Shown here: in pieces, positions 4,919 to 62,240 of the stretch | Position numbering within the stretch: the first letter of the stretch is position 1 | Layout of the letters: each line of letters starts with the position of its first letter | Program-made: the position numbers and the translations under genes | The notes under the pieces: generated by a model | Seen by the model: the letters and a program-made list of their open reading frames with translations, nothing else | Told to the model about the DNA's origin: nothing | Databases searched by the model: none | Assembly (NCBI GenBank): GCA_017163975.1 | Contig: JAFFSR010000084.1 | Location: 196,001-260,000, forward strand | Source of the DNA: Anastatus disparis | Lineage: Eukaryota > Arthropoda > Insecta > Hymenoptera > Eupelmidae | Length of the DNA: 64,000 nt | Direction of reading: 5' to 3'

Positions 4919-4920
4919 CA

Positions 4921-5875: not shown

Positions 5876-5975
5876 TTTCGGCGCCTGTTTTGAGTGAACA
5901 AAATACCACATTCCCCCACAAATGAAAGAATTTAGTATTTAACTCACGCAAAACATGTTTTGAGTCGATATAATA

Positions 5976-9918: not shown

Positions 9919-9922
9919 TTCG

Positions 9923-10520: not shown

Positions 10521-10528
10521 TAAAAAAG

Positions 10529-20615: not shown

Positions 20616-20619
20616 TTCG

Positions 20620-31250: not shown

Positions 31251-31923
31251 CACAGGCCCACAAAATGAAAAAAAATGTCTGAACTTTTGACCGGACATAC
31301 ATATTCCCATGTATTTTTCGACGCTGAATCCGAATCTGTAATAAAAATATAGGGTTTTCCTACCTTTTCTCAGAGTTTTATTGAAAAAACCTCATTTTTT
31401 ACGGTTTTTTTGCGGTTTTTCGAGTCTAGAAAAAACAAATCATGAGATACGGTTAATTGGACTTCAAAATCGAATTCTACGGGAAAAAATACACGGAAAA
31501 CCATACCTTCAAATTTTTTTAACGCGATTCTAGTCCTCTGTATGGGGCTGAAAAGATGAGGAAATCGGTAAAAGTCGAAATTTTGCCTAAAATGGATTTA
31601 AACAATATTAAAATTTAATCATGCGTCTTTTGAAGAGTCGATAAACATTGGAAATACTATCCTGGGGGTTTTTCAGATTGCTGATCATGAATTTGAAGTC
31701 AGATTGTGTAAAAACTACTTCTAGAGGGCGGTGACAAGAACTGTATATGGTAAATTTATCGATTTTTTAAAAATTTTACGTCTGAAATACTAATTTTAGA
31801 GTCTTTCACAGCATTGACTGTAAATTTAAGATATTAACTTAGCCTATTGTGTACGTCAAACTTAACATTTTGTCTATGTTTGTCTCTCTCTCTCTCTCTC
31901 TCTCTCTCTTCCGATGTTTTTTT

Positions 31924-32269
31924 TTAAATTGGCTTACGCTTACGTACACGTTTCTCTTCGAATGACCGATGTAGTGGATTTCTGACACGTTTTTGTCCTT
32001 TTTTCGCAGCTGTTTCTCTTTTTATCATCCAGCAGTAATCTGCTAACATGTTGATACCCCAGTTTCCTTGAAATCTACGTTCAAACTCCTTTAAATCTTG
32101 GTGAAATCGTTCACCATGCTCTTCACTAAAGTCTCCGTTATTTTCAGGAAACTGATCAACGTGCGAATCAAGAAAATGAAGTTTTAAGTTCATTAGACAA
32201 TCCAATTTTTCAAAATTACGTACCATTCTTTTCACAATAGCTTTATAATTCGTGTCTTTGGCATTACCC
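31924..32269 (-). pseudogene. Inverted partial copy of the orphan ORF
   Basis: The minus strand encodes GNAKDTNYKAIVKRMVRNFE through GERFHQDLKEFERRF to a stop at 31924. It is nearly identical to codons of the right arm, with one substitution noted (Asp for Gly in EKL(D/G)CLMN). It ends in KKGQKRVRNPLHRSFEEKRV then a basic tail, probably the native C-terminus, because the right arm is frameshifted at that point. Upstream of 32269 the frame runs into unrelated spacer sequence read backwards, so the ORF has lost its N-terminal half. Confidence 0.8.
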
Positions 32270-32271
32270 AT

Positions 32272-33005
32272 GTTATTTAGGCATGTTTGATAGCAGAGAT
32301 AGAGAAAAACACTATAAAAAGAAAATTTGGCCATCAAGAGAATCGTTTGAACCTGGAAAACAGAATGTTATAAAAGATCCACTCGTTAATCCTTCGAAAT
32401 TTTGATACCGCCTCTGCATATAAAGCTTGGATTGATAAAGCAATTAGTTAAAGCTTTGGACAAGGACGGTCAATGCTTCCAATATATAAGCAAAGTATTT
32501 CCCCATAAATCTGATGCTAAATTAAATGAAGGTATTTTTGATGGTCCTGAAATCCGAACTTTATTTAGAGACGAAAACTTTGAACAAAGCATGACTGATG
32601 TGGAAAAGGCAGCATGGTTAAGTTTTAAAGAGGTATCGACGAAATTTTTGGGTAATGCCAAAGACACGAATTATAAAGCTATTGTGAAAAGAATGGTACG
32701 TAATTTTGAAAAATTGGGTTGTCTAATGAACTTAAAACTTCATTTTCTTGATTCACACGTTGATCAGTTTCCTGAAAATAACGGAGACTTTAGTGAAGAG
32801 CATGGTGAACGATTTCACCAAGATTTAAAGGAGTTTGAACGTAGATTTCAAGGAAACTGGGGTATCAACATGTTAGCAGATTACTGCTGGATGATAAAAA
32901 GAGAAACAGCTGCGAAAAAGGACAAAAACGTGTCAGAAATCCACTACATCGGTCATTCGAAGAGAAACGTGTACGTAAGCGTAAGCCAATTTAAAAAAAA
33001 ACATC

Positions 33006-33039
<34 letters not shown>

Positions 33040-33046
33040 AACATAG
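32272..33046 (+). pseudogene. Orphan protein typical of invertebrate repeat families, 5' truncated and frameshifted
   Basis: The upstream frame, from about 32275, reads FDSRDREKHYKKKIWPSRES and continues to DPLVNPSK. One base is missing near 32400, and the frame continues as IPPLHIKLGLIKQLVKALDK. Later landmarks are IFDGPEIRTLF, then LKLHFLDSHVDQFPEN, EEHGERFHQDLKEFERRF and MLADYCWMIKRE. I remember this order from many uncharacterised multi-copy proteins of arthropods and hydra, with no assigned function. The His/Glu/Asp-rich core could be a metal site, but that is a guess. The N-terminus is lost at the palindrome junction. A second frameshift near 32920 turns the tail into a low-complexity run; the inverted copy keeps what looks like the original tail. 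Confidence 0.8.
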
Positions 33047-33779
33047 ACAAAATGTTAAGTTTAACGTACACAATAGGCTAAGTTAATATCTTGAATTTAC
33101 AGTCAATGCTGTGAAAGACTCTAAAATTAGTATTTCAGACGTAAAATTTTTAAAAAATCGATAAATTTACCATATACAGTTCTTGTCACCGCCCTCTAGA
33201 AGTAGTTTTTACACAATCTGACTTTAAATTCATGATCAGCAATCTGAAAAACCCCCAGGATAGTATTTCCAATGTTTATCGACTCTTCAAAAGACGCATG
33301 ATTAAATTTTAATATTGTTTAAATCCATTTTAGGCAAAATTTCGACTTTTACCGATTTCCTCATCTTTTCAGCCCCATACAGAGGACTAGAATCGCGTTA
33401 AAAAAATTTGAAGGTATGGTTTTCCGTGTATTTTTTCCCGTAAAATTCGATTTTGAAGTCCAATTAACCGTATCTCATGATTTGTTTTTTCTAGACTCGA
33501 AAAACCGCAAAAAAACCATAAAAAATGAGGTTTTTTCAATAAAACTCTGAGAAAAGGTAGGAAAACCCTATATTTTTATTACAGATTCGGATTCAGCGTC
33601 GAAAAATACATGGGAATATGTATGTCCGGTCAAAAGTTCAGACATTTTTTTTCATTTTGTGGGCCTGTGTATTTAATAATAATTATGAGCGAATAATAAA
33701 AAATGGAATAATAGAATAGAAAATTATGATTATAAATAAATATTTTTATCTTCTTATGTCGTAAATTTTATAAATATCG

Positions 33780-41613: not shown

Positions 41614-43295
41614 TTAATTGTTTTGCTTTGGGGTTCCCAAAAGTTTGAGCTCGATGTCTCGGATGGTTTTTCTTGATGGTGGCATAGAGTTAGATCTGCT
41701 GAGTCCTCTTCTTGGCGGATTCAATGATTCCGTTGACCCGGTGGCTGTTCCGTGTTCTGATGTTTTATCCTTCTCTGTATGTTCGGGCTTAGCCAGGCTC
41801 GTAAGCAAATGTGTTATTGAGCCGAAAATGGCTCCCAGAAGTCTTGTACTTCATCCATATACTGTGTATGGAGTGTATCCGCGGATTATGGTGTCGAAGA
41901 TTAGTTTGATTACTTGGCATATCAGGATAATCATTAATATTCCTGCCGAGATTTGGCCAAATTTTTGAAACCTGTTCCACATTTTGTTAAGTGTGGATTC
42001 CATCATTGTTTCCATTTCTTCTGGCGTCAAAAGGTTGTTAATCTTTACAGAGCGCGTTCTTGCTTCTCTGTCGTTAAGCCGTCTCGCTATTGCTTCTAGC
42101 ATTGCAGGCTTTTCGGCTGGAGAGATTGAATGTTCGCGTATATTTTGCAGATCTCCCGGTATGTATATTCCATTTTTCAAGACATCTGAGATGCTGTCGT
42201 GTTTCCAGGTCGGTTGGACAAATGCTTTAGGGTTTGCGGTAGGTTTACCTCCGTTGCTGTAAGGTGAATCTTAAACCATTTCTCGCCGATTTTGAAGATA
42301 CTTGGTATAAGTGTGTTGCAATCTCTAAACGTTCCTATTTGTGCTAGCACCTTGCTGATAGATTTGGCGAAGTAAGCTTCGTCATCGCAAGTCACTGATA
42401 CTTCGTAGTAGCATTGTTCCGTTTTTCTTATTTTGCAGGATCGTGGTACACATTGAATGATGTGGGCGACTTCTCCTGCTGCTATGGCTAAATAACCTTG
42501 CTTCTTCATGACTTTCATGGCAAAAAGGTCTGGGTTTGAGAACGCCAGAGGTAGAGCATTTTCTATGATTTGCTTCTCCAATATACATCGGTGCAGGACT
42601 ATGTCACGATATAGTGATCCTAGTTGTTTATCGAGATGTCTTCCGAGATTCATTATTTTTGCGTTGAAATATGTAGTAAGGATGATATCTGGTACCTCCA
42701 AGCTTTTTCGGGTGGTGAATAATTTGCCTCTTGTGATTTCTAAAATGAATAGTTCTGTTCGATCCGTTTTAATTAATTTATATCCGCATAGCATCTGTTC
42801 TCCAGTTTTGGTTAGACCAAAATTTATCTTCCTAAGTGAATTACCAAAGTAGATAACAGGAGCGTTCGAATTGTTATCAACCATACGTGTCCCTATACCT
42901 TCATATAGGATGGTGAATTCATCGAACTTACATGTGGATCCCATTACTGGGGTCCAGAAAATGCAGCTTTCTTCCTCATCAATGCATCTACCGTTGGTGT
43001 AGCTGCATCGAGTTCCGGTGCTTAGGATCACCATATTCTTTTTTTTATCTACGGTGACCTCGTAGTCTGTTGCTTTGATCTCCAGCTTCGCAGTTACGAC
43101 TACTTTTTCGTATTCATATCCATTATCATTGTAAGTTGTACCCTCACAATATCCGTTTGCATCCAATCTTCCGGCGACTGTGACAGTCCTTTTATTGGTC
43201 GCGTTCACCAAAAGATTATTCATTACGGAGCGTCCATATTTATATTGGCCATACCTAACGAGATCTTCGCATGCTCTTCTCGTTGCCAACTCCAT
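41614..43295 (-). pseudogene. env: env: chuvirus-type glycoprotein, two frameshifts
   Basis: The main open part (43295 to 42177, 372 codons) begins MELATRRACEDLVRYGQYKY. It has many Cys, in spacing such as Y-C-x-G-T and R-C-x5-G-R-C-x6-C-x-F-W, then T-C-x-F-D-E-F ... L-Y-E-G. This layout resembles, as I remember the family, glycoproteins of chuviruses and the copies captured by insect LTR elements, not the furin-site Env of gypsy. A frameshift near 42215-42260 moves to the frame of 41851-42180, which has a predicted membrane segment (about 41880-41950, ISAGILMIILICQVIKLIF). A second frameshift near 41850 leads to the Ser/Pro/Arg-rich tail ending at 41614. No signal peptide is seen at the start, so the N-terminus is missing or spliced in. 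It is disabled. Confidence 0.7.
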
Positions 43296-43320
43296 AAATG
43301 TGGTAGAGCCTCCTTTTTTT

Positions 43321-44376
43321 TTAATTGTGCGAATGCATACCGCAATACGTAATTGTATTTTCTTTAGCTATTTCGTGTATTTCTAACAATTTTGATCTTA
43401 ATCTAGTTAAATAGTCATAATAAGTATCGGTAGTATTTTCCCCCAATACCGCCCTCGCTGATGGAACGCGAGCTATCTTCTCATATACGCATTCGTATGG
43501 GGTGAGCTTCGTCCTTTCATGAACGCTGGTATTGTGGGAAAATGTCGCACGTTCACACCATCTATCCCATTGTCGCATATTTAATACATAGTTCATTAAC
43601 CATTCCTTTAGCGAGTGATGCATTTGCTCAATAGATCCATCGGATTGAGGGTGAAATGCGGTGGTAGTACATGTTTTAATTTTACACATTTTCGCGACGT
43701 TTTTCATTAATGAACTGATAAAATTTGCACCTTGATCCGTCAGGACTATCCTTGGTGACCCATGAATAAAAACAAATCGTTTCAGAAAAGCATCGGCAAT
43801 TGCCGTTGACGTAGTTGAATCTAAAGGGACAGCTATACAAAATTTTTTTAGCAAATCTTGCATCGTCAAAATGTACATGTTCCCATTTCTGGTCCTATTC
43901 AATGGACCTAAGATATCTAACGAAATCTTTTCAAAGCTAGAACCCGGTGTGTCTGTTAACACCATAGGTTGCCTAACCTTATTTCTAACTAGTTTATTTA
44001 GTTGACAAGTGCGACAAGCGTTGACAAAATTTTGGATTCCCGCTTTCATATTTGGCCAAAAATAGTGTTGTCTAACTCGGTTATATGTCTTTGTTATACC
44101 TTTATGGCAGTGAATTTCGCGTATAATTTGTTCACGCAGATCTACTTCTGGTATTTGTATCAAGTTTTTACAGATTATTATGTTAGTTTGAGAATCTGAA
44201 AATATATCTTTCAACAGATCGACAATTTCACTCCGCGTTATATCGTCTATCTGTTCTGTTTTTGAAATTCTCAAGGATACCAGAGACGTTGTTTGGTATA
44301 CGTTTAGCAGTGAAAAAATAGCATCCTTGGAAATTTCTCTATCTGTTTGCATATGCAGATTTTCTTTAATTGGCAA
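43321..44376 (-). pseudogene. pol: Integrase domain of pol
   Basis: The zinc-binding H-H-C-C part reads REIHCHKGITKTYNRVRQHY and NACRTCQLNK. The catalytic core shows the D-D-E triad: SLDILGPL (first Asp), VLTDQGANFIS (second Asp) and SDGSIEQMHHSLKEWL (Glu). TPYECVYE follows, as in gypsy integrases. The frame is open for 351 codons to a stop at 43321, just before env. The 44377-44605 stretch upstream is in broken frames, so the fusion to RNase H is lost. The core itself looks intact but cannot be made from this locus as part of a full Pol. Confidence 0.92.
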
Positions 44377-44605
44377 AGCTATCAGAATCTTTTTGTCATT
44401 TTCAATAAATTTTGCTCTTGCAAGGACAATATCTTGCAGGGGCGGAAGTCTTTGTTTTTGTTGCAGAAAAAGTGCTCCTTAATCGAGAGGTTGATTTTTT
44501 CGTGTTATGTAATAGGTCAGCTTGTCTTTTGCCATGAGAAAGTTATCTCTCGTTTCGATTATATTATGTGATGGTCAAGATCGATTTGATTCGTCTCGAC
44601 CTATC

Positions 44606-46796
44606 TCATACAACAGATAGAGGAACTTCATTCGCCATGGACGGATTTGAATGTAATTCGTCCCTGAGCGATTGATGATCCTCAGAAATATTTGTATTTT
44701 CATTCATAGCATCGTCAGTCACGTGAGCGTCTTCGGGTGGTTTATTTGCTGTGGCTTCTAAAGATTCCTTAAGGATGTCTAGCATCCGTGACAGTTCGTC
44801 GGCTGGCAGTTGATATCTGTCTTGCTCGATTTTAGTCAATTTTACGCTTGTTAGTATGTTGTCGAAGGGTATCTTGTCGTCATAGTCAAAAAAACATATA
44901 TGTTCGTCTCCGTCTTGGCGCGTTAACCATCGTATAGATATTACTTTATTATTTGATTTAATGTACTGTTTGCTTTGGCACAAATAAAAACTGTCCTTAC
45001 TGTTTCTTACTGTTAGGAAGTCAATCTTTTTAAACAGTGTCTCAGTTGCGATTGACTCTATAGAGTTTATTTCATAGACGGGTTTACAGGTGTTTTCCTC
45101 GGGCGTTATCCCAATGATTTCTTTAGTTTCCGATTCGCATATATTTTGCGCTTCGTTATCCGGAGGGTTACGTGATAGCGCGTCGGCCACGAACTTAATT
45201 TTTCCTGGAAGATATTAGATTGTAAAGTCAAATTTGTCTCTTAATTCAAAATACCATTTTTTTAATTTAGATGTACAGTCCTTTATTTTGTGCAGCCAAA
45301 CGAGAGGTTGGTGGTCAGTTATAAAAGTGAAATGTCGGCCAATCAGACAATAGTCGAATTGGTCACCGCAAAACCGCATTGTGAGTAGTTCCTTTTTGAT
45401 AGTGCTATAATTCATCTCGGTTTTTGTAAGCAATCGGCTTGCGTAAACTACAGGTAAATCTGATATTTCCTTCCTTTGCGATAGGACACCATCGACTGCG
45501 TAGACTGAGGCGTCTGTTGTGACAAAGAATTCCTCTTCGAAGTTTGGATGTTGCAAAATTGGTTCATTAATTAGGCAGTTTTTGAGCGTCTCAATAGCTA
45601 TTTCCTGTTCATCTGTCCAATTGAAAGCTACTGCTTTCTTCAAAAGGTTTGTCAATGGCTTTGTGATCGTTGCAAAATTTGGGATGAAACGTCGATAATA
45701 TCCGCACAGACCAAGAAATTGGCGTATTCCCTTGACATTTCGTGGACGAGGGAATTTTTCGACAGCTTGGGTCTTACTTAGGTCTGGTCTCATGCCTTTA
45801 TGACTAATCTCGTGACCAACAAATGTCACTGATGTTTCGTAAAATTGGCATTTTAAGGGATTTAACTTAAGGTTAGATTTCCTTAAAGTCTCTATAAATT
45901 CCAGAAATAATTCGTCTAGATCGTTTAGATTTTCCGCAAACAGTATGACGTCATCAATATATCCTAGCTTTCCTTTTCCTTTCGAGCTTAGATCTAACGG
46001 TTTATGCCCTAATATTTTATTGGTTAATTCTTGAAAAGTACTTGCCGCTGTTCGAATTCCGAAAGGCATCCTTTTAAAGTGAAAGTGACCATAAGGAGTA
46101 GAAAAGGCTGTTTTCTCTCGGTCTTCTTCTCTTATCATTACCTGATGGAAACCTGAATACATATCCATGACGATAAAATAGCGAGCCCCGCCGAGCTGCT
46201 CGACTAAATGTGTAATATATGGGATTGTCATTTAATTTTCGGAAATCGACTACAACTCTCCACTGTGGCTTCCCTTCAATATCGTCTTTCTTTTTGACAA
46301 CCCAGAGGGGGCTGTTAAAAGGCGATTCACTTCTTTCGACTATATCTGATTCTAACAATTAACTTATTTGCTCGTAAACATCTTCTTGCAATTTTTGAGG
46401 TATTGGATACTGTCTTACGTTCACTGGTTCTTCGTCGTAGGTTTCAATTTTATGTTCGATTATGTTAGTGGCAGAAAGGGGTTCTCCTTTCAAATGAAAA
46501 ACAGCGACAGTTTTTTCAATGAGCTTGTGCAACCTTGCTTCGTTTTCTTCCGCTATATGGTTTTTAGGTATGTAGTTTAATATACATTCTGTTCTGTTTT
46601 TGACGTTAGCATTGTATACTCGCTCAAAATTTTTGTGTTTTGAACTTCGATTATCCTTTTTATATGGCTTGACGTAGAATTCAGTGACAGTATTTATGTC
46701 TAAGATAGTTCTGTTGATGCATGGTTCTATATCAGAGTAATTTACATTAGTTTCTATTGGTTGATTCACCTGATTTATTTCGATATAGTCCAGCAA
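44606..46796 (-). pseudogene. pol: Reverse transcriptase and RNase H of pol, with stops and a frameshift
   Basis: The pre-RT region (46796-46359) ends in PQKLQEDVYEQIS then a TAA. The frame resumes with SPFNSPLWVVKK and VVVDFRKLND. Near 46230 a small deletion and frameshift removes the usual Y-P-L-P segment. RT then runs through YFIVMDMYSGFHQV, KRMPFGIRTAASTFQ and GYIDDVILF (catalytic Y-I-D-D), then FLGLCGYYRRFIPNF. RNase H starts at VTTDASVYAVDGVLSQ and includes NYSTIKKELL and FTFITDHQPL. A TAA at about 45212 interrupts the C-terminal FTI..YLPGK, and the frame resumes with FVADALSRNPP to 44606. Three independent lesions make this a pseudogene. Confidence 0.93.
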
Positions 46797-46952
46797 ATTT
46801 GCACCTGGAAGGAAATCTCGAATTATTATATCTTCTTCAGTGGTTTCTGTGCTTTCGTTATCTGATATTTCAGTTTTCCCTTTGGTTAGACTTGTGCTTA
46901 CCGTGTTGCGCGGAGCTTTTTCGGGCTTAGCATAAGTCTCGTAGATGCTATG

Positions 46953-48131
46953 TCACACATTGTCATCGTCGCTTACCGTGTTGCGCGGGGTGTTTTCGGG
47001 CTTTGCGTACGATGATTTTGGATTTCGGCCGGGGGATTCGATTAAATTTACGATAGAGTTCGGAGCGTCATCGTCTACCGTGTCGCGCGAAGCATTTTCG
47101 GACTCAACGCATGACGTTGCAGAATTGGGTAACACCTGCACAGGAACCTTAGATTTAGGAATTATATTTTCTTGAACTTGAAGGTCTTCTTCGGAAGATG
47201 AGCAAATAGTACCGTCTAAGTAGCGTCTCTGAAAAACTCGATCGTATTCTTCACCATATTCAAAAGTAATTAGGTCGTTGATTAGTTCGTCGGCTGACCT
47301 TGTATCATCTACATTGGCCTGCATAGAAACAAGAGAAGGTGCTTGATTCGTGGCGTTAACTTCTTTTATATCTTCTGTATCCATGAAGAGAGTGCTATCT
47401 TTGTCTATAAAAATTTTCTCGTTACGATGCTGATAATATTTCTGTGTTGGTTCTAGAGTTAGCGGTGTTATTTTTAGGTCGATATCAAAGATATTGGTAT
47501 TGAATACTTCTATGTCAACGTAGCCTCCGTCGTTGATTGCCATGAAGTTTCCTGCCACTATGCCTTTTTCGTTAAATTTTATTTTCCTAATATAGCCACA
47601 TTCATCTTCTGGGTTATTCAACGGGAAACGTACAGTTGCGGTTGCTAGAGCAGGTGTTCTCTTAAGGTCTTTTAAATTTACGGAAGGCAAGGTTTTGTCC
47701 TCGAAAATTAGTGCCTTTCGATAGAATTCGAGGCTTGCTCCGTGCTGCTCACAGAAGTTTGAACCTATTATTGCTTCTGTTTTCATCGGACAATCATCAG
47801 CGACTATAATGACCTCTGTTGGGGATCCATATATGTCAATGACGCATGTACCAATCGAAGGAATATCGGTTCCCCATATTCCTCTTAACAATGGTCGGTT
47901 TGATTCGTTAACCATTACGTCACCGTTAAAAATGACTATTTTTACTATATTGGGCTGCGCACCTGAATCAACCATAGCTTCAACGAAATTATGTAGAAAT
48001 TGTGGGGATTCCACGATAACGATTGGCGTTGTTTCTTCTAAGTTGACGGTGTACATGTAAGTTCTGTTACAATCGCGTTCACTGGGCGCGTTTCCTCGGT
48101 TGCGTTTTTTTGTTGATTCTTTTGGACCCAT
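46953..48131 (-). pseudogene. pol: Protease and pro-RT linker of pol
   Basis: It lies in the -1 frame relative to gag and overlaps gag's end. The aspartic protease motif is AMVDSGAQPNIVK (catalytic D-S-G, about residues 52-64), and AIIGSNFCEQHG is the second conserved motif. The long acidic linker ends with imperfect repeats of the form YAKPE-x-x-P-R-N-T-V-S, the last of which lies beyond a TGA at about 46950. The reading frame beyond that stop continues into the pre-RT segment. The Met at 48131 is the first in frame, but expression is expected by frameshifting from gag. Confidence 0.88.
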
Positions 48132-48663
48132 TTTAATTTACGGCACTCTCTCTTTACATGACCTCTGTTTTTGCAATAGGCACATATTTTTATCTGGTAA
48201 TCGTTATTATGACTTTTGCTTCTGTCATTTGATTGGTTGTTAGTCTGGTTGTATCTTCCCTGATTAGATGTAGTTGCTTGTGGCGCATCCGGTTTTACAG
48301 CTGCTGCTTCGTTCGTATCTCGTCTATTTTCATAGAGATTCTTATTTCTTTCGTTGATCTTATATCCATGCTTCAAGTTGTCCCTATCAATCTGCTTATC
48401 TACCGCGATTGCGTCGTCGAATACTTCGTTCAGAGTTAAGTTTGCTGGGTTTTTAAGCCTTTGCCTAAATTCCGGCGGTAAGCCGTCTCGAAATCCTTCG
48501 ATTATATCTCCTTCAATTTCAGAAAGTTCGTCACGAGTTAATTCATTGCTGATATCGAAACGTTTTCGATTGATAATAGCTTCTTTAAGGTCAACGATTC
48601 GTGTAATAATATTAAGCAGTGACTCGTTCCTTCCCTTATAAAGGACCCCAGAAGATTCTTATG
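48038..48663 (-). pseudogene. gag: gag, C-terminal half
   Basis: Reading away from the foldback boundary, the frame gives LYKGRNESLLNIITR. It shifts by one base near 48600 and continues with IVDLKEAIINRKRFDIS and LPPEFRQRLKNPANLTL, the C-terminal capsid pattern of gypsy-type Gag. The zinc knuckle CAYCKNRGHVKREC (C-x2-C-x4-H-x4-C) follows near 48140-48180. The frame ends at 48038, overlapping pol. Its missing N-terminal half is at 62241-63037, 13.6 kb away. Confidence 0.88.
48104..48110 (-). promoter_or_regulatory. Candidate -1 frameshift heptamer A AAA AAC
   Basis: On the minus strand AAAAAAC lies in the gag frame as A AAA AAC, inside the gag-pol overlap, and the pol frame is exactly -1. I do not see a strong stem immediately downstream, so the stimulatory element is not identified. 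Confidence 0.65.
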
Positions 48664-49036
48664 GGTTTCTGGGTCCCGGTGAAATTTGATAATAGTATGA
48701 CCTAATTGTAGCTTATTTTTTTCTGAACATAAGTCTCCATGGGCTCAAGTCCCGAAAATGCACAGATTTTAAGTAAATAATGATTAAAGTCGTTGATTTT
48801 TGGAAAGGTTAGAGTGACCGAAGGCGTAACTTCAATTGTTCGATATGCTCATTATATAGTTGTTATTTGAATAATTTATTGAAATAATTTTATGTTTAAT
48901 AAACCTAGAATTATGCAAAATATAATTTTTTAAAATAATTTAAAAAAAACTTGGAACATAGAATTATTAAACTATTATTATATACAATGAAATAATTATT
49001 CTTCAAATATTTTATAATAAGAAAAAATATCATTTG
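48664..49036. repeat. Left unique terminal inverted repeat of the foldback
   Basis: It pairs with 61480-62240 (excluding the MITE there). Landmarks are CTCCATGGGCTCAAGTCCCG, GGTTAGAGTGACCGAAGGCG and TTCAAATATTTTATAATAAG. The left copy is uninterrupted and so shows the MITE's empty site near 48760. Confidence 0.92.
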
Positions 49037-50334
49037 ATGTGTTTATGGTTTATGGGTTTATAATTTTTTGGTTTATGGGATTATGGTTCATGGTTTATGG
49101 GTTTATGGTTTCTGGGTATATGGTTTATGGGTATATGGTTTATGGATTTATGGGTTTATGGGTTTATGGTTTATGGGTTTATGGTTTATGGGTTTGTAGT
49201 TTATGGGTTTATGGCTTTACGATTTATGGGTTTATTATTTATGGTTTTATTGTTTATGGGTTTAGGATTTATGGGTTTGTGCATTTATAAGTTTACGATT
49301 TATAGGTTTATGGTTTTATGGTTTATGGGTTTATGCTTTAAAGGTCTATGGGTTTATGGTCTATGGTTTTAAGGTTTATGAGTTTATGGTTTATGGGTTT
49401 ATGGGTTTATGGTTTATGGGTTTATGGTTTATGGGTTTATGGTTTATGGGTTTATGGTTTATGGGTTTATGGTTTATGGGATTATGGTTTATGGGTTTAT
49501 GGTTTATGGGTTTATGGTTTATTACACTATTATTATATACAATAAAATAATTATTTTTCAAATATTTTATAATAAGAAAAAATATGATTTGATGTGTTTA
49601 TGGTTCATGGGTTTATAATTTTTTGGTTTATGGATTCATGGTTTATGGTTTATTGGTTTATGGTTTATGGGTATATGGTTTATGGGTTTATGGGTTTATG
49701 GGTTTATGGCTTTACGATTTATGGTTTTATAAGTTTACGGTTTATGGGTTCATAGTTTATGGGTTTATGGCTTTACAATTTATGGGTTTATTATTTATGG
49801 TTTTATTGTTCATGGGTTTATGGGTTTATGGGTTTATTACACTATTATTCTATACAATAAAATAATTATTTTTCAAATATTTTATAATAAGAAAAAATTT
49901 CATTTGATTTGTTTATGGTTCATGAGTTTATAATTTTTTGGTTTATGGGTTCATGGTTCATGGTTTATGGGTTTATGGTTTATGGGTATATGGTTTATGG
50001 GTTTATGGTTTATGGGTTTATGGGTTTATGGCTTATGGGTCTATGTGTTTATGGTTTATGGGTTTATGGTTTATGAGTTTATGCTTTATGGATTTATGGG
50101 TTTATGGTTTATGGGTATACGGTTTATGGGTTCATGCTTTAAGGGTCTATGTGTTTATGGTTTATGGGTTTATGGTTTATGGGTATACGGTTTATGGGTA
50201 TACGGTTTATGGGTTTATGGTTTATGGGTTTATGCTTTAAAGGTCTATGGGTTTATGGTTTATGGGTTTATGGTTCATGGCTTAACGGTTAATGGGATTA
50301 TGATTCATGGGTTTATGAGCTTATGCTTTAAGGG

Positions 50335-50724
50335 AAATCCTCATACTGACATAGAGTTCTACCTTATCTATATTTAAATTATGAATAATAATAAAAATTT
50401 AACTATTCATGACTGAAATTCGTAGGAGAGGCACATTCTTAACATGCCAAAGAATTTATTCCAACGTTAAAAGACAATATAAGGGTAAAATAAAGGCGAA
50501 AACTGCTTAATACGATTAACTTTTTAATGTAGCTATAAATAATCGTATTATGCAGTTTTTTTCTTTATTTTCACTGTTACTCTGTCTTTTAACGTTGCAA
50601 TAAATTTTTAGAATGTTAAGAACGTGCCTCTTCTATGAATTTTAGTCAAAAATAGTAAAATTTTTATTTAAATGCATAATTCAAATGTAGATAAGGTAGA
50701 TCTCTATGCCGGTATGATGACACC
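50335..50724. mobile_element. Hairpin MITE with 9 bp target duplication, copy 1
   Basis: The 390 bp insert is flanked by CTTTAAGGG at 50326-50334 and 50725-50733. Arms of about 190 bp pair (AGAGGCACATTCTTAAC against GTTAAGAACGTGCCTCT, TCTACCTTATCTA against TAGATAAGGTAGA). Long terminal inverted repeats with 9 bp duplications are typical of Mutator-like elements. It is absent from the right arm. Confidence 0.85.
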
Positions 50725-52480
50725 CTTTAAGGGTCTATGGGTTTATGGTTTATGGGTTTATGGGTTTCTGGTTCTTGGATTTTGGTTTTTGGTTTATTGG
50801 TTTATAGTTTGCGGGTTTGTGGGTTTATGGTTTATGGGTTTATGGTTTATGGGTTTAGGGTTTATGGGTTATGGGTTCATAGTTTATAGGTTTATGGCTT
50901 CACTATTTATGAGTTTATTATTTATGCTTTTATTGTTTATGGGTTTAGGGTTGATGGGTTCATGCATTTATGAGTGTACGATTTATAGGTTTATAGGTTT
51001 ATGGTTCATAGTTTATGGGTTTATGGGTTCATGGTTTATTATTTTAAGGTTTATAAGTTTATGGTTTATGGGTTTATGGGTTTATGCATTTATGGGTTTA
51101 TGGTTTCATAGTATATGGGTTTATAGTTCATGGTTTATGGGTTTATAGGTTTATAGTTCATGGTTTATGGGTTTATAGGTTTATAGTTCATGGTTTATGG
51201 GTTTATAATTTTTTGGTTTATGGGATTATGGTTCATGGTTTATGGGTTTATGGTTTCTGGGTATATGGTTTATGGGTATATGGTTTATGGATTTATGGGT
51301 TTATGGGTTTATGGTTTATGGGTTTATGGTTTATGGGTTTGTAGTTTATGGGTTTATGGCTTTACGATTTATGGGTTTATTATTTATGGTTTTATTGTTT
51401 ATGGGTTTAGGATTTATGGGTTTGTGCATTTATAAGTTTACGATTTATAGGTTTATGGTTTTATGGTTTATGGGTTTATGCTTTAAAGGTCTATGGGTTT
51501 ATGGTCTATGGTTTTAAAGTTTATGAGTTTATGGTTTATGGGTTTATGGGTTTATGGTTTATGGGTTTATGGTTTATGGGTTTATGGTTTATGGGTTTAT
51601 GGTTTATGGGTTTATGGTTTATGGGATTATGGTTTATGGGTTTATGGTTTATGGGTTTATGGTTTATTACACTATTATTATATACAATAAAATAATTATT
51701 TTTCAAATATTTTATAATAAGAAAAAATATGATTTGATGTGTTTATGGTTCATGGGTTTATAATTTTTTGGTTTATGGATTCATGGTTTATGGTTTATTG
51801 GTTTATGGTTTATGGGTATATGGTTTATGGGTTTATGGGTTTATGGGTTTATGGCTTTACGATTTATGGTTTTATAAGTTTACGGTTTATGGGTTCATAG
51901 TTTATGGGTTTATGGCTTTACAATTTATGGGTTTATTATTTATGGTTTTATTGTTCATGGGTTTATGGGTTTATGGGTTTATTACACTATTATTCTATAC
52001 AATAAAATAATTATTTTTCAAATATTTTATAATAAGAAAAAATATCATTTGATTTGTTTATGGTTCATGAGTTTATAATTTTTTTGGTTTATGGGTTCAT
52101 GGTTCATGGTTTATGGGTTTATGGTTTATGGGTATATGGTTTATGGGTTTATGGTTTATGGGTTTATGGGTTTATGGCTTATGGGTCTATGTGTTTATGG
52201 TTTATGGGTTTATGGTTTATGAGTTTATGCTTTATGGATTTATGGGTTTATGGTTTATGGGTATACGGTTTATGGGTTCATGCTTTAAGGGTCTATGTGT
52301 TTATGGTTTATGGGTTTATGGTTTATGGGTATACGGTTTATGGGTATACGGTTTATGGGTTTATGGTTTATGGGTTTATGCTTTAAAGGTCTATGGGTTT
52401 ATGGTTTATGGGTTTATGGTTCATGGCTTAACGGTTAATGGGATTATGATTCATGGGTTTATGAGCTTATGCTTTAAGGG

Positions 52481-52871
52481 AAATCCTCATACTGACATAG
52501 AGTTCTACCTTATCTATATTTAAATTATGAATAATAATAAAAATTTAACTATCCATGACTGAAATTCGTAGGAGAGGCACATTCTTAACATGCCAAAGAA
52601 TTTATTCCAACGTTAAAAGACAATATAAGGGTAAAATAAAGGCGAAAACTGCTTAATACGATTAACTTTTTAATGTAGCTATAAATAATCGTATTATGCA
52701 GTTTTTTTCTTTATTTTCACTGTTACTCTGTCTTTTAACGTTGCAATAAATTTTTTAGAATGTTAAGAACGTGCCTCTTCTATGAATTTTAGTCAAAAAT
52801 AGTAAAATTTTTATTTAAATGCATAATTCAAATGTAGATAAGGTAGATCTCTATGCCGGTATGATGACACC
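52481..52871. mobile_element. Hairpin MITE, copy 2 (by segmental duplication)
   Basis: This is identical in position within the second 2.15 kb unit, with CTTTAAGGG at 52472-52480 and 52872-52880. It differs from copy 1 by one extra T and one or two substitutions, so it arose by duplication of the host unit and not by a second insertion. Confidence 0.88.
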
Positions 52872-54500
52872 CTTTAAGGGTCTATGGGTTTATGGTTTAT
52901 GGGTTTATGGGTTTCTGGTTCTTGGATTTTGGTTTTTGGTTTATTGGTTTATAGTTTGCGGGTTTGTGGGTTTATGGTTTATGGGTTTATGGTTTATGGG
53001 TTTAGGGTTTATGGGTTATGGGTTCATAGTTTATAGGTTTATGGCTTCACTATTTATGAGTTTATTATTTATGCTTTTATTGTTTATGGGTTTAGGGTTG
53101 ATGGGTTCATGCATTTATGAGTGTACGATTTATAGGTTTATAGGTTTATGGTTCATAGTTTATGGGTTTATGGGTTCATGGTTTATTATTTTAAGGTTTA
53201 TAAGTTTATGGTTTATGGGTTTATGGGTTTATGCATTTATGGGTTTATGGTTTCATAGTATATGGGTTTATAGTTCATGGTTTATGGGTTTATAGGTTTA
53301 TAGTTCATGGTTTATGGGTTTATAGGTTTATAGTTCATGGTTTATGGGTTTATAATTTTTTGGTTTATGGGATTATGGTTCATGGTTTATGGGTTTATGG
53401 TTTCTGGGTATATGGTTTATGGGTATATGGTTTATGGATTTATGGGTTTATGGGTTTATGGTTTATGGGTTTATGGTTTATGGGTTTGTAGTTTATGGGT
53501 TTATGGCTTTACGATTTATGGGTTTATTATTTATGGTTTTATTGTTTATGGGTTTAGGATTTATGGGTTTGTGCATTTATAAGTTTACGATTTATAGGTT
53601 TATGGTTTTATGGTTTATGGGTTTATGCTTTAAAGGTCTATGGGTTTATGGTCTATGGTTTTAAAGTTTATGAGTTTATGGTTTATGGGTTTATGGGTTT
53701 ATGGTTTATGGGTTTATGGTTTATGGGTTTATGGTTTATGGGTTTATGGTTTATGGGTTTATGGTTTATGGGATTATGGTTTATGGGTTTATGGGTTTAT
53801 GGTTTATGGGTTTATGGTTTATGGGTTTATGGTTTATGGGTTTAGGGTTGATGGGTTCATGCATTTATGAGTGTACGATTTATAGGTTTATAGGTTTATG
53901 GTTCATAGTTTATGGGTTTATGGGTTCATGGTTTATTATTTTAAGGTTTATAAGTTTATGGTTTATGGGTTTATGGGTTTATGCATTTATGGGTTTATGG
54001 TTTCATAGTATATGGGTTTATAGTTCATGGTTTATGGGTTTATAGGTTTATAGTTCATGGTTTATGGGTTTATAGGTTTATAGTTCATGGTTTATGGGTT
54101 TATAGCTTTATCGTTTATGGGTTTATGGTTTATGGTTTATGAGTTAATGTTTTATGGGTTTATGCTTTAAGGGTTTATGGGTTTATGGTTCTTGGATTTG
54201 GGTTTACGGGTTTATGGTTTATGGTTTATGGGTTTATGGTTTAAGGGTTTATGGTTTATGAGTTTACGATTTATGGGTTAATGGGTTAATGGTTCATGGT
54301 TCTCGGAATTGGGTTTATGGGGTATGGGTTTATGGTTTATGGGTTTATGAGCTTATAAGTTTATGGTTTATAACTTTACGAGTTATGAGTTTATAAGTTT
54401 ACGGTTTATGGGATCATAGTTTATAGGTTTATTACTTTACGCTTTATGCGTTTATAATTGATGGTTTTATTGTTTTTGGGTTTAGGGTTTATGGGTTTAT

Positions 54501-55135
54501 GGTTTAAGCGTAAAATAAATGTAATAATTATGAGTGCGAGTATTTGATTCTATGAATAATTCAAATAAATCACTCGACTCTACGAGTTTGTGTCTAAAAT
54601 TGATCAAGTTACTCAAAAAAATATGAATAACTCGAATTGATCGTAAAAATATGAGTTGCTCAGAGTACTCGAATGAATCGAATTATTCAAAGAAATATGA
54701 ATTACTCTAATAACTCATGTTACTCAAAAATATAGGTGCTTTTCTTATTAATATTTTTTGTAGAAACTAGTTTATTATTCATTTGTTTTTTGGAGCGGAG
54801 GCTTCCCCTTACCGCCAACTCCGGTAGGTGCTTCGCCACATTTTTATTTTTATGTTATCATATATTAATGCGGCTACTTCACATATTATTAACAAATGTA
54901 TACTCAATGCGGCTGAATATGACGCCCGTCGTGTATAAAACAGTAATATATTAACCACGGAAGTGAAGGTGTTTTTGACCTTGTCTTTATCATCACGTCT
55001 CAAGCATAAATCACCTATTCTACTTCCTTGGTTAACAATGTAATATTCTCCTTTTCCCTTAACATCGACATTATATTTGATTCGGAAAATAGTTTGCTAA
55101 TATAAGTTGTTTAAGATTGTACAGTTTGACGATTC
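54501..55135. repeat. Unique block of the left arm
   Basis: It pairs with 59025-59640. Its outer 200 bp (54535-54735) is a loose array of GAATTACTC/GAATAACTC-type words. The inner 400 bp is non-repetitive and GC-richer, with GAGCGGAGGCTTCCCCTTAC and AATATGACGCCCGTCGTGTA. It is the only part of the element that could hold a promoter or a short transcript. The ORFs here (54736-54954 plus, 54809-55003 minus, and the mirrored 59195-59431) are short and not recognisable. Confidence 0.85.
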
Positions 55136-55683
55136 AATTATAATTATTACTACGTAACGATATGACTGTAATGACATATAATCATCACAACGGTATTACA
55201 TTAATAATAGTTATTACTACGTAACAATAGTAATAACTATAATCACGTATAATCATCATTACAGTTTTATAATCAATCATAGTTATTATATGTAAGTATA
55301 GTATTGACTATAATCACCAATAATCATCACCACAGTTTTATAATCAATTGTATTTATTACCACGAAACCATAGTAATGACTATAGTCACCTATAATCATC
55401 ACTACAATTATATAATCAATTAGTGATTATAATTAATGATTATATTCACCTATAATCATTACAACAGTTTTATAATCAATTATAGTTATTACCACAAAAT
55501 TATAGTTAAGACTATAATCACCTACGATCATCACTACAGTCATACTTTAATATTTAGTTATTGCTATGTAACTATAGTAATGACTATAATCACGTATAAT
55601 CATCATTACAGTTTTATAATCAATCATAGTTATTATAACATAAGTATAGTATTGACTATAATCACCAATAATCATCACCACAG
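55136..55683. repeat. AT minisatellite, left arm
   Basis: Units of about 70 bp contain ACTATAATCACCTATAATCA, TCACTACAGTTTTATAATCA and ATTATAGTTATTACTACGTA. It pairs with 58322-59020. The core is the reverse complement of the 1-1058 array core with an added 22 bp of GATGATTATAGGTGATTATA type. Confidence 0.85.
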
Positions 55684-56712
55684 TTCGTGCGCTTCTTTTA
55701 GCATACGCTATATTCAGCACACGCTAATTTTTCCATTTCGCGCTAGATTTAGCACACGCTTATTTTAGCAGAATCTAGTCTTAGCGCACGCTGGATTTGG
55801 TGAACGCTAATTTCAGCAGACGCTAATTTCGGAAGATGCTATATTTTGCACCGGGTAATATTGCTACTTATTGCTAGATTTAGCGCACGCTAATATTCCC
55901 ATTTCACGCTGAAATTAGCGAATGATAATTTTAGCTGACGCTAATTCCAGAAAATGCTATATTTAGCACTAGCTAATATTGCTCGTTATCGCTAGATTAG
56001 GCGCACCCTAATTTTAGCAGTCTCAAGTATTAGCACACGCTAATTCTGCTGAAAAAATCTAAATTTAGCAGACGCTAGTATTAGTAGACTCTAGTTTTAG
56101 CACTCGCTAACATCGCAAGCTTACGCTAGTTTTAGCGTGTGCTTCTTTTAGCATACGCTATATTCAGCAAACGCTAATTTTTCCATTTCACGCTAGATTT
56201 AGCACACGCTGATTTTGCTAATGTGTGCTAGATTCGGCGCACGCTAGTTTCAGCAGACTCTCGTTTTTGCGCACGCTAACATTGCAAGCCCACGCTGGTT
56301 TTAGCGTGCGCTTCTTTTAGCATACGCTATACTCAGCACACGCTAATTTTTCCATTTCACGCTAGATTTAGCATACGCTCATTTTGCTAATGTGTGCTAG
56401 ATTTAGCGCACGCTAGTTCTAGCAGACTCTCGTTTTTGCGCACGGTAACATTGCAAGCCTCCACTGGTTTTAGCGTGCGCTTTTTTTAGCATACGCTACA
56501 TTCAGCACACGCTAATTTTTCCATTTCACTCTAGATTTAGCTTACGCTAATTTTGCTAATGTGTCCTAGATTTAGCGCACGCTAGTTCTAGCAGACTCTC
56601 GTTTTTGCGCACGCTAACATTGCAAGCCTACGCTAGTTTAAGCGTGCGCTTCTTTTAACATACGCTATATTCAGCACACGCTAATTTTTCCATTACATGC
56701 TAGATTTAGTAC
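55684..56712. repeat. GCGCACGCTAAA array, left arm, 170 bp higher-order period
   Basis: Short words of 16-20 bp such as TTAGCGCACGCTA and TTAGCATACGCTA are self-complementary with their neighbours. From 56131 onward a higher-order unit of 170 bp is clear (TTTAGCGTGCGCTTCTTTTA at about 56131, 56301, 56471 and 56640). It pairs with 56745-58321. Confidence 0.9.
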
Positions 56713-56744
56713 AAAATAAAAATTTTTATCAAAATTAGCGTGTG
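56713..56744. other. Centre of the giant palindrome
   Basis: The symmetry axis lies in AAAATAAAAATTTTTATCAA, itself a short AT palindrome (AAAAATTTTT). To either side the array words are reverse complements: ACACGCTAATTTTTCCATTA on the left, AATGGAAAAATTAGCGTGTG on the right. Confidence 0.8.
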
Positions 56745-58321
56745 CTAAATCTAGCGTGAAATGGAAAAATTAGCGTGTGCTGAATATAGCGTATACTAAA
56801 AGAAGCACACGCTAAAACTAATGTAAGCTTGCGATGTTAGCGTCTGCTCAAACTAGCATTTATTTGCACAAATAACGTGCGCTAAGCTTGAGTCCACTTT
56901 AATTCACGACCGCTGAATCAAGCATAAAATGAGATTATAAGCGTGCGCTAAATCTAGCAAGAACTAGCAATATTAGCCGCTGCTAAATATAGCATTTTCT
57001 GAAATTAGCGTCTGCAGAAATTAGCGGTTGCTAAATCCAGCGTGCACTAAGGCTGGATTCTGCTAAAATTTGCGTGTGCTAAATATAGCATGTAATGGTA
57101 AAATTAACGTGTGCTGAATATAGCGTATGCTAAAAGAAGCGCACGCTAAAACCAGCGTAGGCTTGCAATGTTAGCGTGCGCAAAAACGAGAGTCTGCTAG
57201 AACTAGCTAGCGCTAAATCTAGCACACATTAGCAAAATTAGCGTTAGCTAAACCTAACGTGAAATGGAAATATTATAGTGTGCTCCATATAGCGTATGCA
57301 AAAATAAGCGCACGCTAAGACTAGCGTAAGCTTGCAATGTTAGCGTGTGCTAAAACTAGCATTCATTTGCGAAAATAACGTGCACTAAGCTTGAGTCCGC
57401 TTTAATTCACGATCGCTTAATCCAGCATAAAATAAGAATATTAGCGTGCGCTAAATCTAGCAATAATCAGCAATATTAGCCGTTGCTAAATATAGCATCT
57501 TCTGAAATTAGCGTCTGCTGAAATTAACGTTCGCTAAATCCAGCTAGCGCTAAAGCTTGATTCTGCTAAAATTAGCATGTGCTAAATCTAGCATGTGATA
57601 AAAAATTAGCGTGTGCGGAATATGGCGTATGCTAAAAGAAGCGCAACCCAAAACCAGCGTAGGCTTGCAATGTTAGCGTGCGCAAAAACGAGAGTCTGCA
57701 AGAACTAGCGTGCGCTAAATCTAGCACACATTAGCAAAATTAGCGTGTGCTAAATATAGCGTGAAATGAAAAAATTAGCGTGTGCTGAATATAGCGTATG
57801 CTAAAAGATGCACACGCTAAAACTAGCGTAAGCTTGTAATGTTAGCGTGTGCTAAAACTAGCATTTATTTGCGAAAATAACATGCGCTAAGCTTGAGTCT
57901 GCTTTAATTCACGATCGATGAATCCAGCATGAAATAAGATTATTAGCATGCGCTCAATCTAGCAATAACTAGCATTATTAGCCGGTGCTAAATATAGCAT
58001 CTCCTGAAATTATCGTCTGCTGAAATTAGCGTTCGCTGAATCCAGTGGGCGCTAAGGCTGAATTCTGCTTAAATTAGCGTGTGCTAAATCTAGCATGTAA
58101 TAGAAAAATGAGCGTGTGTTGAATATAGCGTATGCTAAAAGAAGCGCTCGCTAAAACCAGCGTAGGCTTGCAATGTTAGCGTGCGCAAAAACGAGAGTCT
58201 GCAAGAACTAGCGTGCGCTAAATCTAGCACACATTAGCAAAATTAGCGTGTGCCAAATCTAGTGTGAAATGAAAAAATTAGTGTGTGCTGAATATAGCGT
58301 ATGCTAAAAAAAGCGCACGAA
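56745..58321. repeat. GCGCACGCTAAA array, right arm
   Basis: Reverse-complement words (TAGCGTGTGCTGAATATAGC, GTATGCTAAAAGAAGCGCAC, GCTTGCAATGTTAGCGTGCG) repeat in units of about 170 and 340 bp. At 1.58 kb it is longer than the left array. Confidence 0.9.
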
Positions 58322-59020
58322 CTGTAGTGATGATTATTGGTGATCATAGTCAATACTATAGTTATGTAATAATAACTATGATTGTTTATAAGACTGTAAT
58401 GATGATGATACGTGATTTAAGTAATTACTATAGTTACGTAGCAATAACTAAAAATGATTGTAAGACTGTAGTGATGATTGTTGGTGATTATAGTCTTAAC
58501 TATAATTTTGTGGTAATGACTATAATTGATTATAAACCTGTATTGATAATTATACATGATTATAGTCATTACTATAGTAACGTAGCAATAACTAAATATT
58601 AATGTATGACAGTAGTGATGATCGTAGGTGATTATAGTCTTAACTATAATTTTGTGGTCATAACTATAATTGATTATAAAACTGTTGTAATGATTATAGG
58701 TGAATATAATCATTAATTATAATCACTAATTAATTATATAGTTGTAGTGATGATTATAGGTGACTGTAGCCATTACTATAGTTTCGTGGTAATAACTACA
58801 ATTGATTATAAAACTGTGGTGATGATTATTGGTGATTATAGTCAATACTATAGTTACGTATAATAACTATGATTGATTATAAAACTGTAATGATGATTAT
58901 ACGTGATTATAGTTATTACTATTGTTACGTAGTACTAACTATTATTAATGTAAAACTGTTGTGATGATTATATGTCATTACAATCATATAGTTACATAGT
59001 AATAATTATATTTGAATCGT
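58322..59020. repeat. AT minisatellite, right arm
   Basis: Units such as ACTGTAGTGATGATTATAGG and TGATTATAGTCATTACTATA alternate with ACGTAGTAATAACTATAATT. It mirrors 55136-55683. Small ORFs on both strands are repeat artefacts. Confidence 0.85.
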
Positions 59021-59640
59021 TGAACTGTACAATCTTAAACAACTTATATTAGCAAAATATTTTCCGAATCAAATATAATGTCGATGTTAAGGAAAAAGGA
59101 GAATATTACATTGTTAACCAAGGAAGTAGAATAGGTGATTTATGCTCGAGACGCGACAATAAAGACGAGCTCAAAAACACCTTTACTTCCGTGGTTAATA
59201 TATTACTGTTTCATACACGACGGGCGTCATATTCAGCCGCATTGAGTATACATTTGTTAATAATACGTGAAGTAGCGGCATTAATATATGGTAACATGAA
59301 AATAAAAATGTGGCAAAGCACTTACCGTAGTTGGCGGGAAGGGGAAGCCTCCGCTCCAAAAAACAAATAAATAATAAACTAGTTTCTACAAAAAATATTA
59401 ATAAAAAAGCACCTATATTTTCGAGTAACATGAGTTATTAGAGTAATTCATATTTCTTTGAATAATTCGATTCATTCGAGTACTCTAAGCAACTCATATT
59501 TTTACGAACAATTCGAGTTATTCATATTTTTTTTGAGTAACTTGATCAATTTCAGACACGAACTCGTAAAGTCGAGTGATTTATTTGAATTATTCATAGA
59601 ATCGAATACTCGCACTCATAATTATTACATTTATTTTACG
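59021..59640. repeat. Unique block of the right arm
   Basis: This is the mirror copy of 54501-55135, with a few percent divergence (for example GACGCGACAATAAAGACGAG in place of the left arm's GATGATAAAGACAAGG complement). It has no recognisable gene. Confidence 0.85.
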
Positions 59641-61480
59641 CATAAACCATAAACCCATAAACCCTAAACCCAAAAACAATAGAACCATCAATAATAAACC
59701 CATAAAGCGTAAAGTAATAAACCTATAAACTATGAACCCATAAACCGTAAACTTATAAACCCATAACTCGTAAAGTTATTAACCATGAACCTATAAACCA
59801 TAAACCCATAAACTATAAACCCATAAACCATAAACCCAAATCCAAGAACCATAAACCATTAACCCATCAACCCATAAATCATAAACCCGTAAACTATAAA
59901 CCCATAAACCATAAACCCAAATCCAACAACCATCAACCATTAACCCATCAACCCATAAATTATAAACCCATAAACCATAGACCCATAAACCCTAAACCCA
60001 TAAACCATAAACCCAAATTTAAGAACCATAAACTCATAAACCACAAACCTATAGACCCTTAAAGCATAAACCCATAAACCATAAACCCATAAACCATAAA
60101 CCCATAAACCCATAAACCATAAACCCATAAACCATACACCCATAAACCATAAACCCATAATCCCATAAACCATAAACCCATAAATTATAAACCCATAAAC
60201 CATAAACCCGTAAACCCAAATCCAAGAACCTTCAACCCATAAACCACAAACCCATAAACCCTTAAAGCATAAGCCCATAAACCATAAACTCATAAACCAT
60301 AAACCCATAAACCATAAACCCGTACACCCAAATCCAAGGACCATAAACCCATACACCTTAAACCCATAGACCTATAAACCATAAACCCATAAACCATAAA
60401 CCCATAAACCATGAACCCATAAACCATAAACCCATAAACCATAAACCCATAAACCATAAACCCAAATTTAAGAACCATAAACCCATAAACCACAAACCCA
60501 TAGACCCTTAAAGCATAAACCCATAAACCATAAACCCATAAACCATAAACCCATAAACCATAAACCCATAAACCATAAACCCATAAACCATAAACCCATA
60601 AACCATAAACCCATAAACCATAAACCCATAAACCATAAACCCATAAACCATAAACCCATAAACCCATAAACCATAAACTCATAAACCATAAACCCATAAT
60701 CCCATAAACCATAAACCCATAAATTATAAACCCATAAACCATAAACCCGTAAACCCAAATCCAAGAACCTTCAACCCATAAACCACAAACCCATAAACCC
60801 TTAAAGCATAAACCCATAAACCATAAACTCATAAACCATGAACCCATAAACCATAAACCCATAAACCCAAATCCAAGGACCATAAACCCATAAACCTTAA
60901 ACCCATAAACCTATAAACCATAAACCCATAAACCATAAACCCATAAACCATAAACCCATAAACCATAAACCCATAAATCAAAAACCCAAATCCAAGAACC
61001 AGAAACTCATAAACCATAAACCCATAGACCCTTAAAGCATAAACCCATAAACCCATAAACCTTGAACCCATAAACCATAAACCCATAAACCATAAACTAT
61101 AAACCCATATACTATAAAACCATAAACCCATAAATCGTAAACCCATAAATGCATAAACCCATAAACCATAAACCCATAAAACCATAAACCATGAACCCAT
61201 AAACCCGTAAACCCAAATCCAAGAACCATAAACCCATAAACCTGAAACCCATAAACCATAAACCCATAAACCATAAACCCATAAACCTGAAACCCATAAA
61301 CCATAAACCCATAAACCATAAACCCATAAACCATAAACCATAAACCATAAACCATAAACCCATAAACCCATAACTCCATAAACCATATACCCATAAACCA
61401 TATACCCATAAACCATAAACCCATAAACCATGAACTATAATCCCATAAACCAAAAAATTATAAACCCATGAACCATAAAC
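59641..61480. repeat. CCATAAA/CCCATAAA minisatellite, right arm
   Basis: This is the reverse complement of the left TTTATGG/TTTATGGG array and is 1.84 kb long. It contains its own local duplication (about 60040-60390 resembles 60460-60900) but lacks the 2.15 kb unit and the MITE of the left arm. The repetitive minus-strand ORFs are artefacts of a stop-free 15-mer. Confidence 0.9.
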
Positions 61481-62240
61481 ACATCAAATGATATTTTTTC
61501 TTATTTTAAAATATTTGAAGAATAATTATTTTATTGTATATAATAATAGTGTAATAATTCTACGTTCCAAGTTTTTTTAAAATTATTTAAAAAAATTATA
61601 TTTTATATAATTCTAAGTTTATCAAACATGCAATTATTTTAATAAATTATTCAAATAACAACTATATAATGAGCATATCAAACAATTGAAGTTACGCCTT
61701 CGGTCACTCTAACCTTCCCAGAAATCAACGACTTTAATCATTATTAACTTAAGAGGAGGTCATGTATCTCTGTCCTTTTCTAATCAAAGAAATGATTTTT
61801 TTACAAAATAATAACTTTATCAAAAAATGAAAAGAAAGCCGCATCTTGTATCAAAAAAAGCAATATTTTCTTTGATAAGAAAAAATTAATTTTATTGCTT
61901 TGTTCTCAAGAAAACCTTGAAAAACCAAATTGTCCACCCTAACCTCTATGATTTAAGTTTTTCAAGGTTTTCTTGAAAATGAAGCAATAAAATTAATTCT
62001 TTCTTATCAGAGAAAATATTGCTTTTTTTATTACGAGATGCGGCTTTCCCTTCATTTTTTGCTAAAGTTAAAAGTTTCTGTAAAAAACTCAATTCTTTGA
62101 TTAGAAAAGGACAGAGATACGTGACCTCTTCTTAAAACCTGTGCATTTTCGGGACTTGAGCCCATGGAGACTTATGTTCAGAAAAAATAAGCTACTATTT
62201 GGTCATACTATTATTAAATTTCACCGGGACCCAGAAACCC
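61481..62240. repeat. Right unique terminal inverted repeat, interrupted by a MITE
   Basis: It mirrors 48664-49036. The TIR sequence is continuous apart from the insert at 61753-62132. Confidence 0.92.
61753..62132. mobile_element. piggyBac-like hairpin MITE (TTAA) in the right TIR
   Basis: The 380 bp insert begins GAGGAGGTCATGTATCTCTG and ends with its near-complement CAGAGATACGTGACCTCTTC. TTAA lies on both sides (61749-61752 and 62133-62136). The arms pair across a loop near 61940 (CTAACCTCTATG). The left TIR shows a single TTAA at the same position (48769-48772 area), which is the empty site. Confidence 0.92.

Follow-up and report, generated by a model that had tools for sequence, protein, structure and literature searches.

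A giant mirrored element in a retroelement gag

The window analysed here is a stretch of 64,000 nucleotides from Anastatus disparis (contig JAFFSR010000084.1), and our subject is a giant foldback element that occupies positions 48643–62240 within the gag of a retroelement. A sequence-only reading of the window had described a foldback cleanly lodged in a retroviral gag; the coding-less foldback and its place in a retroelement gag held, but the insertion is not perfectly clean, the right end being ~20 bp short. Self-comparison and tandem-repeat finding showed that the arms mirror each other part by part. From its end inwards, each has an outer unique domain followed by a TTTATGG(G) minisatellite, then a unique block, then an AT minisatellite and finally arrayed short inverted motifs, and the two meet at a centre at 56710–56730 (Table 1); this upholds the earlier claim that the two arms bear the same ordered set. 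In arm-to-arm alignments the outer domains were 94.6% identical over 386 columns (nested insert excluded), the unique blocks 95.5% over 639 columns, the AT arrays 93.5% over 552 columns and the inner arrays 81% over 1029 columns. A chance mirror order is excluded, because the arms matched each other with a BLAST E value of 0.0 and copies elsewhere show the identical order.

Table 1. Parts of the foldback element, in window coordinates
Feature	Position	Strand	Basis or remark
AAA, read as left half of the AAATTT target	48640..48642	+	AAA at 48/49 family ends; AAATTT at a sister copy's empty site
Left outer (flanking) domain, true terminus GGACCCCAGAAG...	48643..49036	+	End alignments; 94.6% to right arm
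Left TTTATGG/TTTATGGG minisatellite, with two ~390 bp palindromic inserts and a 2.1 kb duplication	49037..54506	+	
Left unique inner block	54507..55133	+	Genome search, 760 first-look candidates
Left AT-rich minisatellite, 72 bp period	55134..55685	+	
Left short-inverted-motif array; 169 bp higher-order unit, 16 bp sub-period	55686..56709	+	
Palindrome centre	56710..56730	.	Same in C24; nearly same in C361 and C332 (reversed)
Right short-inverted-motif array	56731..58320	-	
Right AT-rich minisatellite	58321..59015	-	
Right unique inner block	59016..59641	-	95.5% to left
Right minisatellite	59642..61484	-	
Right outer domain, last ~20 bp gone, split by the nested element of the next row	61485..62240	-	
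Nested palindromic miniature inverted-repeat transposable element (MITE)	61753..62131	.	TTAA at 61749-61752 and 62132-62135; foreign to the ancestral element

The two arms have also acquired features of their own. The left minisatellite measures 5.5 kb vs 1.84 kb on the right, and is enlarged by a 2.1 kb tandem duplication (49041–51982 / 51186–54111, 96.4% identical) through which a ~390 bp palindromic insert at ~50330–50726 has a second copy at ~52476–52873. An apparent TTTAA repeat was read by eye at this insert. The right outer domain is split between TTAA repeats by a 379 bp palindromic MITE (fold z-score -26.55) that is not present in the left arm and that we take, from its target, to be piggyBac-like; an apparent relative of it begins 8 bp from the right end of another copy of the foldback, C319 (locus L046). 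The minisatellite unit, GGGTTTATGG, is one base off the subterminal motif GGGTTTCTGG and occurs in 30, 38, 37 and 59 exact copies in four stretches of the array. Given the difference in arm length, the ~5% divergence between arms and the private nested insertions, an artefact of read folding is unlikely, and the mirrored structure is confirmed as real.

Termini, copies and movement of the family

The 939 Mb assembly (399 contigs) was then the space in which relatives were sought. With the inner block as query there were 760 first-look candidates, of which the 40 scored had 91–95% identity, and with the outer domain 220, of which the 40 scored had 95–96% and all started within query bases 1–3 (self excluded in both cases); many relatives thus exist in the host genome. 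These copies do not end at GGGTTTCTGG, as had been proposed. This motif starts at 48663 (48664 in the sequence-only reading) and lies inside the element: in end alignments the similarity among copies runs past it to AAAGGACCCCGGAAGATTCTTAT, and the flanks diverge beyond. The true terminus, GGACCCCGG, is 20 bp beyond the motif. It was found at 49 ends, which belong to 38 loci whose flanks are unrelated. AAA precedes it in 48 of the 49 ends, 44 of which begin AAAGG. The ends were taken from best-scoring matches, which biases the count towards intact termini, and it leaves out four altered ones (window right, C332 right, C14 right and C15 left) as well as C117 left, where the outer domain is missing. 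The window copy keeps its left end intact, opening with GGACCCC at 48643 after AAA, and its right arm stops with ..CCAGAAACCC at 62240, ~20 bp short of the terminus of other copies. The base before AAA over the 49 ends was T in 27, C in 13, G in six and A in three, a preference around the target that extends beyond AAATTT.

Nine other copies, fetched in part or whole (C15 as a single arm), had the identical module order, and seven of the nine showed both outer domains and ranged from 8.8 to 28.0 kb. Individual copies depart from this plan. The block of one arm is cut at position 440–442 in C14, C100 and C379, with the AT array missing there; one arm of C332 contains three blocks, an outer domain is missing from C117, and C361 carries a 4.4 kb element nested in its right AT array. 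This nested element (L022, ~2907–7306) has CACAG...CTGTG ends, an open reading frame (ORF) of 653 aa and, by eye, an apparent TTA duplication. The 653 aa ORF was considered as the transposase of the family and rejected, as it belongs to that separate element.

The palindrome centre is identical in the window and C24, and differs by about two changed or missing letters in C361 and, in the opposite orientation, C332; C14, C100 and C379 have a second common centre. In the block tree the left arms of the latter three copies form one clade (support 0.996) and their right arms another (0.987), and both window arms fall with the right arm of C24 in one clade (0.972). The right block of the window is 96.6% identical to the right block of C24 and 96.3% to that of C361, and less close (95.4%) to the left block of the same element. 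C284 has a middle domain of 4.66 kb, whose main matches were 97.3–99.7% identical in C224 (1.7 kb read), C319 (2.3 kb) and C350 (3.1 kb), the last with weaker side matches too. Since near-identical centres and middle domains occur at unrelated loci, whole palindromes move as units. The middle domain is mostly ~99% identical between loci, which suggests that the 21–28 kb long form was recently mobile; the subfamily of the window copy lacks this domain. Between the arms of C284 the inner blocks are 100% identical and the outer domains 97%, suggesting that arms may exchange sequence by conversion.

As to a longer relative with a transposase between the arms, longer relatives do exist, and no gene was recognised in their middles, which reach 4.7 kb. 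The middle of C284 had no ORF >118 aa, and none of its eight ORFs gave a Pfam match over the cut-off. The view that the element, lacking coding capacity, would need a transposase from elsewhere is supported.

Apparent insertion in AAATTT and possible affinity to Spy

The clearest view of the target came from C315, whose flanks fall in an open frame. When the two flanks were joined as an empty-site query (320 bp; 239 candidates), 40 of 40 scored target copies matched. The match spanned 326 bp in 39 of them and, for query positions 1–319, 325 bp in the other, that is, 6 bp more than the joined flanks. All six of the empty copies fetched read CTCCTTCC-AAATTT-GCCTAG, and the occupied site reads CTCCTTCC-AAA/GGACC...GGTCC/TTT-GCCTAG (slashes mark the element). 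The A's and T's therefore belong to the target, and at this site no base was duplicated or lost. A target-site duplication (TSD) of at least 6 bp was lacking in 10 of the 11 two-ended copies, and none of 4–10 bp was present at the six copies whose both ends match the terminus with 0 mismatches. In the window, no TSD was visible at the boundary taken by the sequence-only reading (the left boundary then being off by one; the comparison was later repeated per element); its site has AAA on the left and a single T on the right, with gag frames on either side that are compatible when read apart. AAATTT was probably the target of the other copies too.

Long inverted repeats that hold tandem repeats fill most of the element, and its dispersed copies have common termini, as in foldback elements; the insertion within AAATTT at the one clean site, C315, and the lack of a TSD in 10 of 11 copies, exact at C315, are what is seen with Spy elements. 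We therefore think it likely that the family is a non-autonomous giant foldback DNA transposon that inserts, Spy-like, between AAA and TTT without duplication. A transposase supplied in trans, putatively of Spy type, would recognise the two like outer ends (GGACCCCGG...), move the whole palindrome as one unit and insert it between AAA and TTT of AAATTT with zero bases duplicated, as in Spy transposons. Because no transposase was found, we file the family as a foldback element with Spy-type insertion, and its Spy membership we infer.

Several observations weigh against this assignment. No transposase could be linked to the family in the C284 middle or at 10 loci of Mutator-like elements (MULEs). 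The clean empty site is that of C315 alone, and TSDs of 1–5 bp were checked solely at the six copies with perfect ends (4–5 bp) and at C315. Among the two-ended copies C379 alone has a 6 bp repeat, GTTAGT, directly outside AAA and TTT. The target of C350 is less simple. Two target copies match the full query within 309 bp and have another deletion. A further 33 match it in two halves, which are separated by 87 bp in 29 copies and by 86–105 bp in the remaining four, and the copies fetched, four in number, start with AAA and end with CTT, not TTT. Three further copies matched one half alone. The C350 site is either a variant target or a deletion.

Ordered tandem repeats within long inverted repeats are found in sea urchin TU and Drosophila FB elements, which are smaller and have 8–9 bp TSDs. 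The earlier view that the structure is unlike known foldbacks was overstated, as Tetris, a foldback of Drosophila virilis, has terminal inverted repeats (TIRs) consisting of a flanking domain, tandem repeats and an inner domain, followed by a middle; it likewise has no conserved ORF, and it seeds satellites (PMC4079207). Tetris differs in that its TIRs reach up to 1,735 bp, it makes 8–10 bp TSDs and it is placed in Mutator by its authors (PMC4079207). Galileo is also foldback-like, with internally repetitive TIRs of variable length, but it has 7 bp TSDs, a P-type transposase and TIRs up to ~1.26 kb; its TIR tandem repeats have been proposed as extra transposase sites (PMC3573991). By analogy the minisatellite array of the window may provide such sites, and terminal and minisatellite repeats might together help a transposase to bind. 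Tm1 of root-knot nematodes shares composite TIRs with repeats of a ~14 bp motif, but differs in its 9 bp TSDs, its Phantom/Mutator-like transposase and its smaller size (PMC3169594). The chief novelty is the lack of a TSD in 10 of 11 copies together with AAATTT at one clean empty site, which lay beyond what the window alone could offer.

An AAATTT target and the lack of a TSD are the hallmarks given for Spy (PMC4482050), and long TIRs occur in this group as well (PMC11304231). Spy elements form a cut-and-paste group in which the bee element cgSpy, with 467 bp TIRs, is active in human cells, with an activity that falls by ~12% for each kb of cargo in tests up to 8.5 kb (PMC11304231). TIRs starting with GG are stated for the ISL2EU group, which is related to Spy (PMC4482050 / PMC11304231). 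The Spy families described so far encode a transposase, whereas the present family is 8.8–28 kb long, consists of satellite-built palindromes and had none that we saw.

The foremost alternative is a foldback of Mutator/Phantom type or of P type (Galileo-like) that lost its TSDs when recombination between copies swapped their flanks. Described foldbacks are mostly placed in Mutator (Tetris, PMC4079207; Tm1, PMC3169594), chimeric Galileo copies without matching TSDs are on record (PMC3573991), and transposase domains of both MULE and P-element type occur in this genome (131 and 75 matches). However, the flanks of C315 are one contiguous target with AAATTT alone between them and no 7–10 bp duplication, so no flank swap took place there, and the six copies with perfect termini have no TSDs. 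Neither the 8–10 bp TSD of Mutator-type elements nor the 7–8 bp TSD of P/Galileo-type elements was found among the two-ended copies, C379 being the sole one with a 7/8 match. The best 10 of the 131 MULE matches, with 1.5 kb on each side, held no block, AT array or inner array; outer-domain matches at these loci were short and weak (best 27 bp, E 4e-5). A comparison for swapped TSDs between flanks of different copies, made without a control, gave 58 pairs matching over at least 6 bp, and of the 20 shown most were AT-rich or counted the AAA; these were not accepted as swapped TSDs. We regard this alternative as unlikely.

Less probable still is that no transposon is involved and that linear extrachromosomal or broken DNA was end-joined into chromosomes. 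Such joining would likewise leave no TSD, as seen here, and it could account for the ~81 bp of target that C350 may have lost; a precise common terminus at 49 ends with AAA at 48 of them, and the exact, zero-loss insertion in AAATTT at C315, are hard to reconcile with it. That each palindrome is a local inverted duplication or an assembly artefact, a class of error for which palindromes are classic and which the 100% identity of the C284 inner blocks might recall, is very improbable and largely contradicted by the ~5% distance between the window arms (in the two unique domains, transitions number 35 and transversions 15), their private nested insertions and the near-identical centres at unrelated loci.

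Returning to the Spy-like foldback, we consider it probable, with somewhat less assurance than for the assignment itself, that the family is the first lineage in the Spy (PHIS) group to have a foldback form, made of satellite-built palindromes of up to 28 kb, with no target duplication and with a recently mobile long form. Among the open-licence PMC papers listed we saw no report linking Spy/PHIS with a foldback structure, and the word foldback was absent from the two Spy papers among them. An exact 25-base motif had 0 matches in viral contigs. If this placement is true, the foldback form evolved in another transposase superfamily besides Mutator and P, and whole palindromes of more than 20 kb can be mobilised in nature, a size far beyond the Spy cargo tested so far. 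The family would then be a candidate source of three kinds of satellite dispersed through one genome, its copies, each holding both orientations, are plausible inversion breakpoints, and annotation that depends on TSDs may miss such elements.

Other features of the window

At 42177–48131 on the minus strand, the retroelement that hosts the foldback has pol pieces (reverse transcriptase, RNase H and integrase) and an env-like ORF. The latter matches the Pfam family Monjiviricetes_fusion (E 1.5e-100) and presumably encodes an envelope like those of chuvirus-type RNA viruses. At positions 1–1065 and ~4910–5200 the window contains an AT minisatellite similar to the AT array of the foldback, and the element lodged between these two stretches looks to us like an R1-like non-LTR (long terminal repeat) retrotransposon. 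Two further inverted repeats were noted. One, of 1 kb (31246–32270 / 32649–33673), is 98.9% identical between its arms, each of which holds part of an ORF without Pfam matches; the other, of 848 bp (24193–25036 / 25651–26497, 95% identical), surrounds a 400 bp palindrome at 25041–25439. Finally, direct repeats of 600 bp at 9921–10521 and 20018–20616 (97.7% identical) enclose gag-like ORFs and are perhaps the LTRs of a second retroelement.

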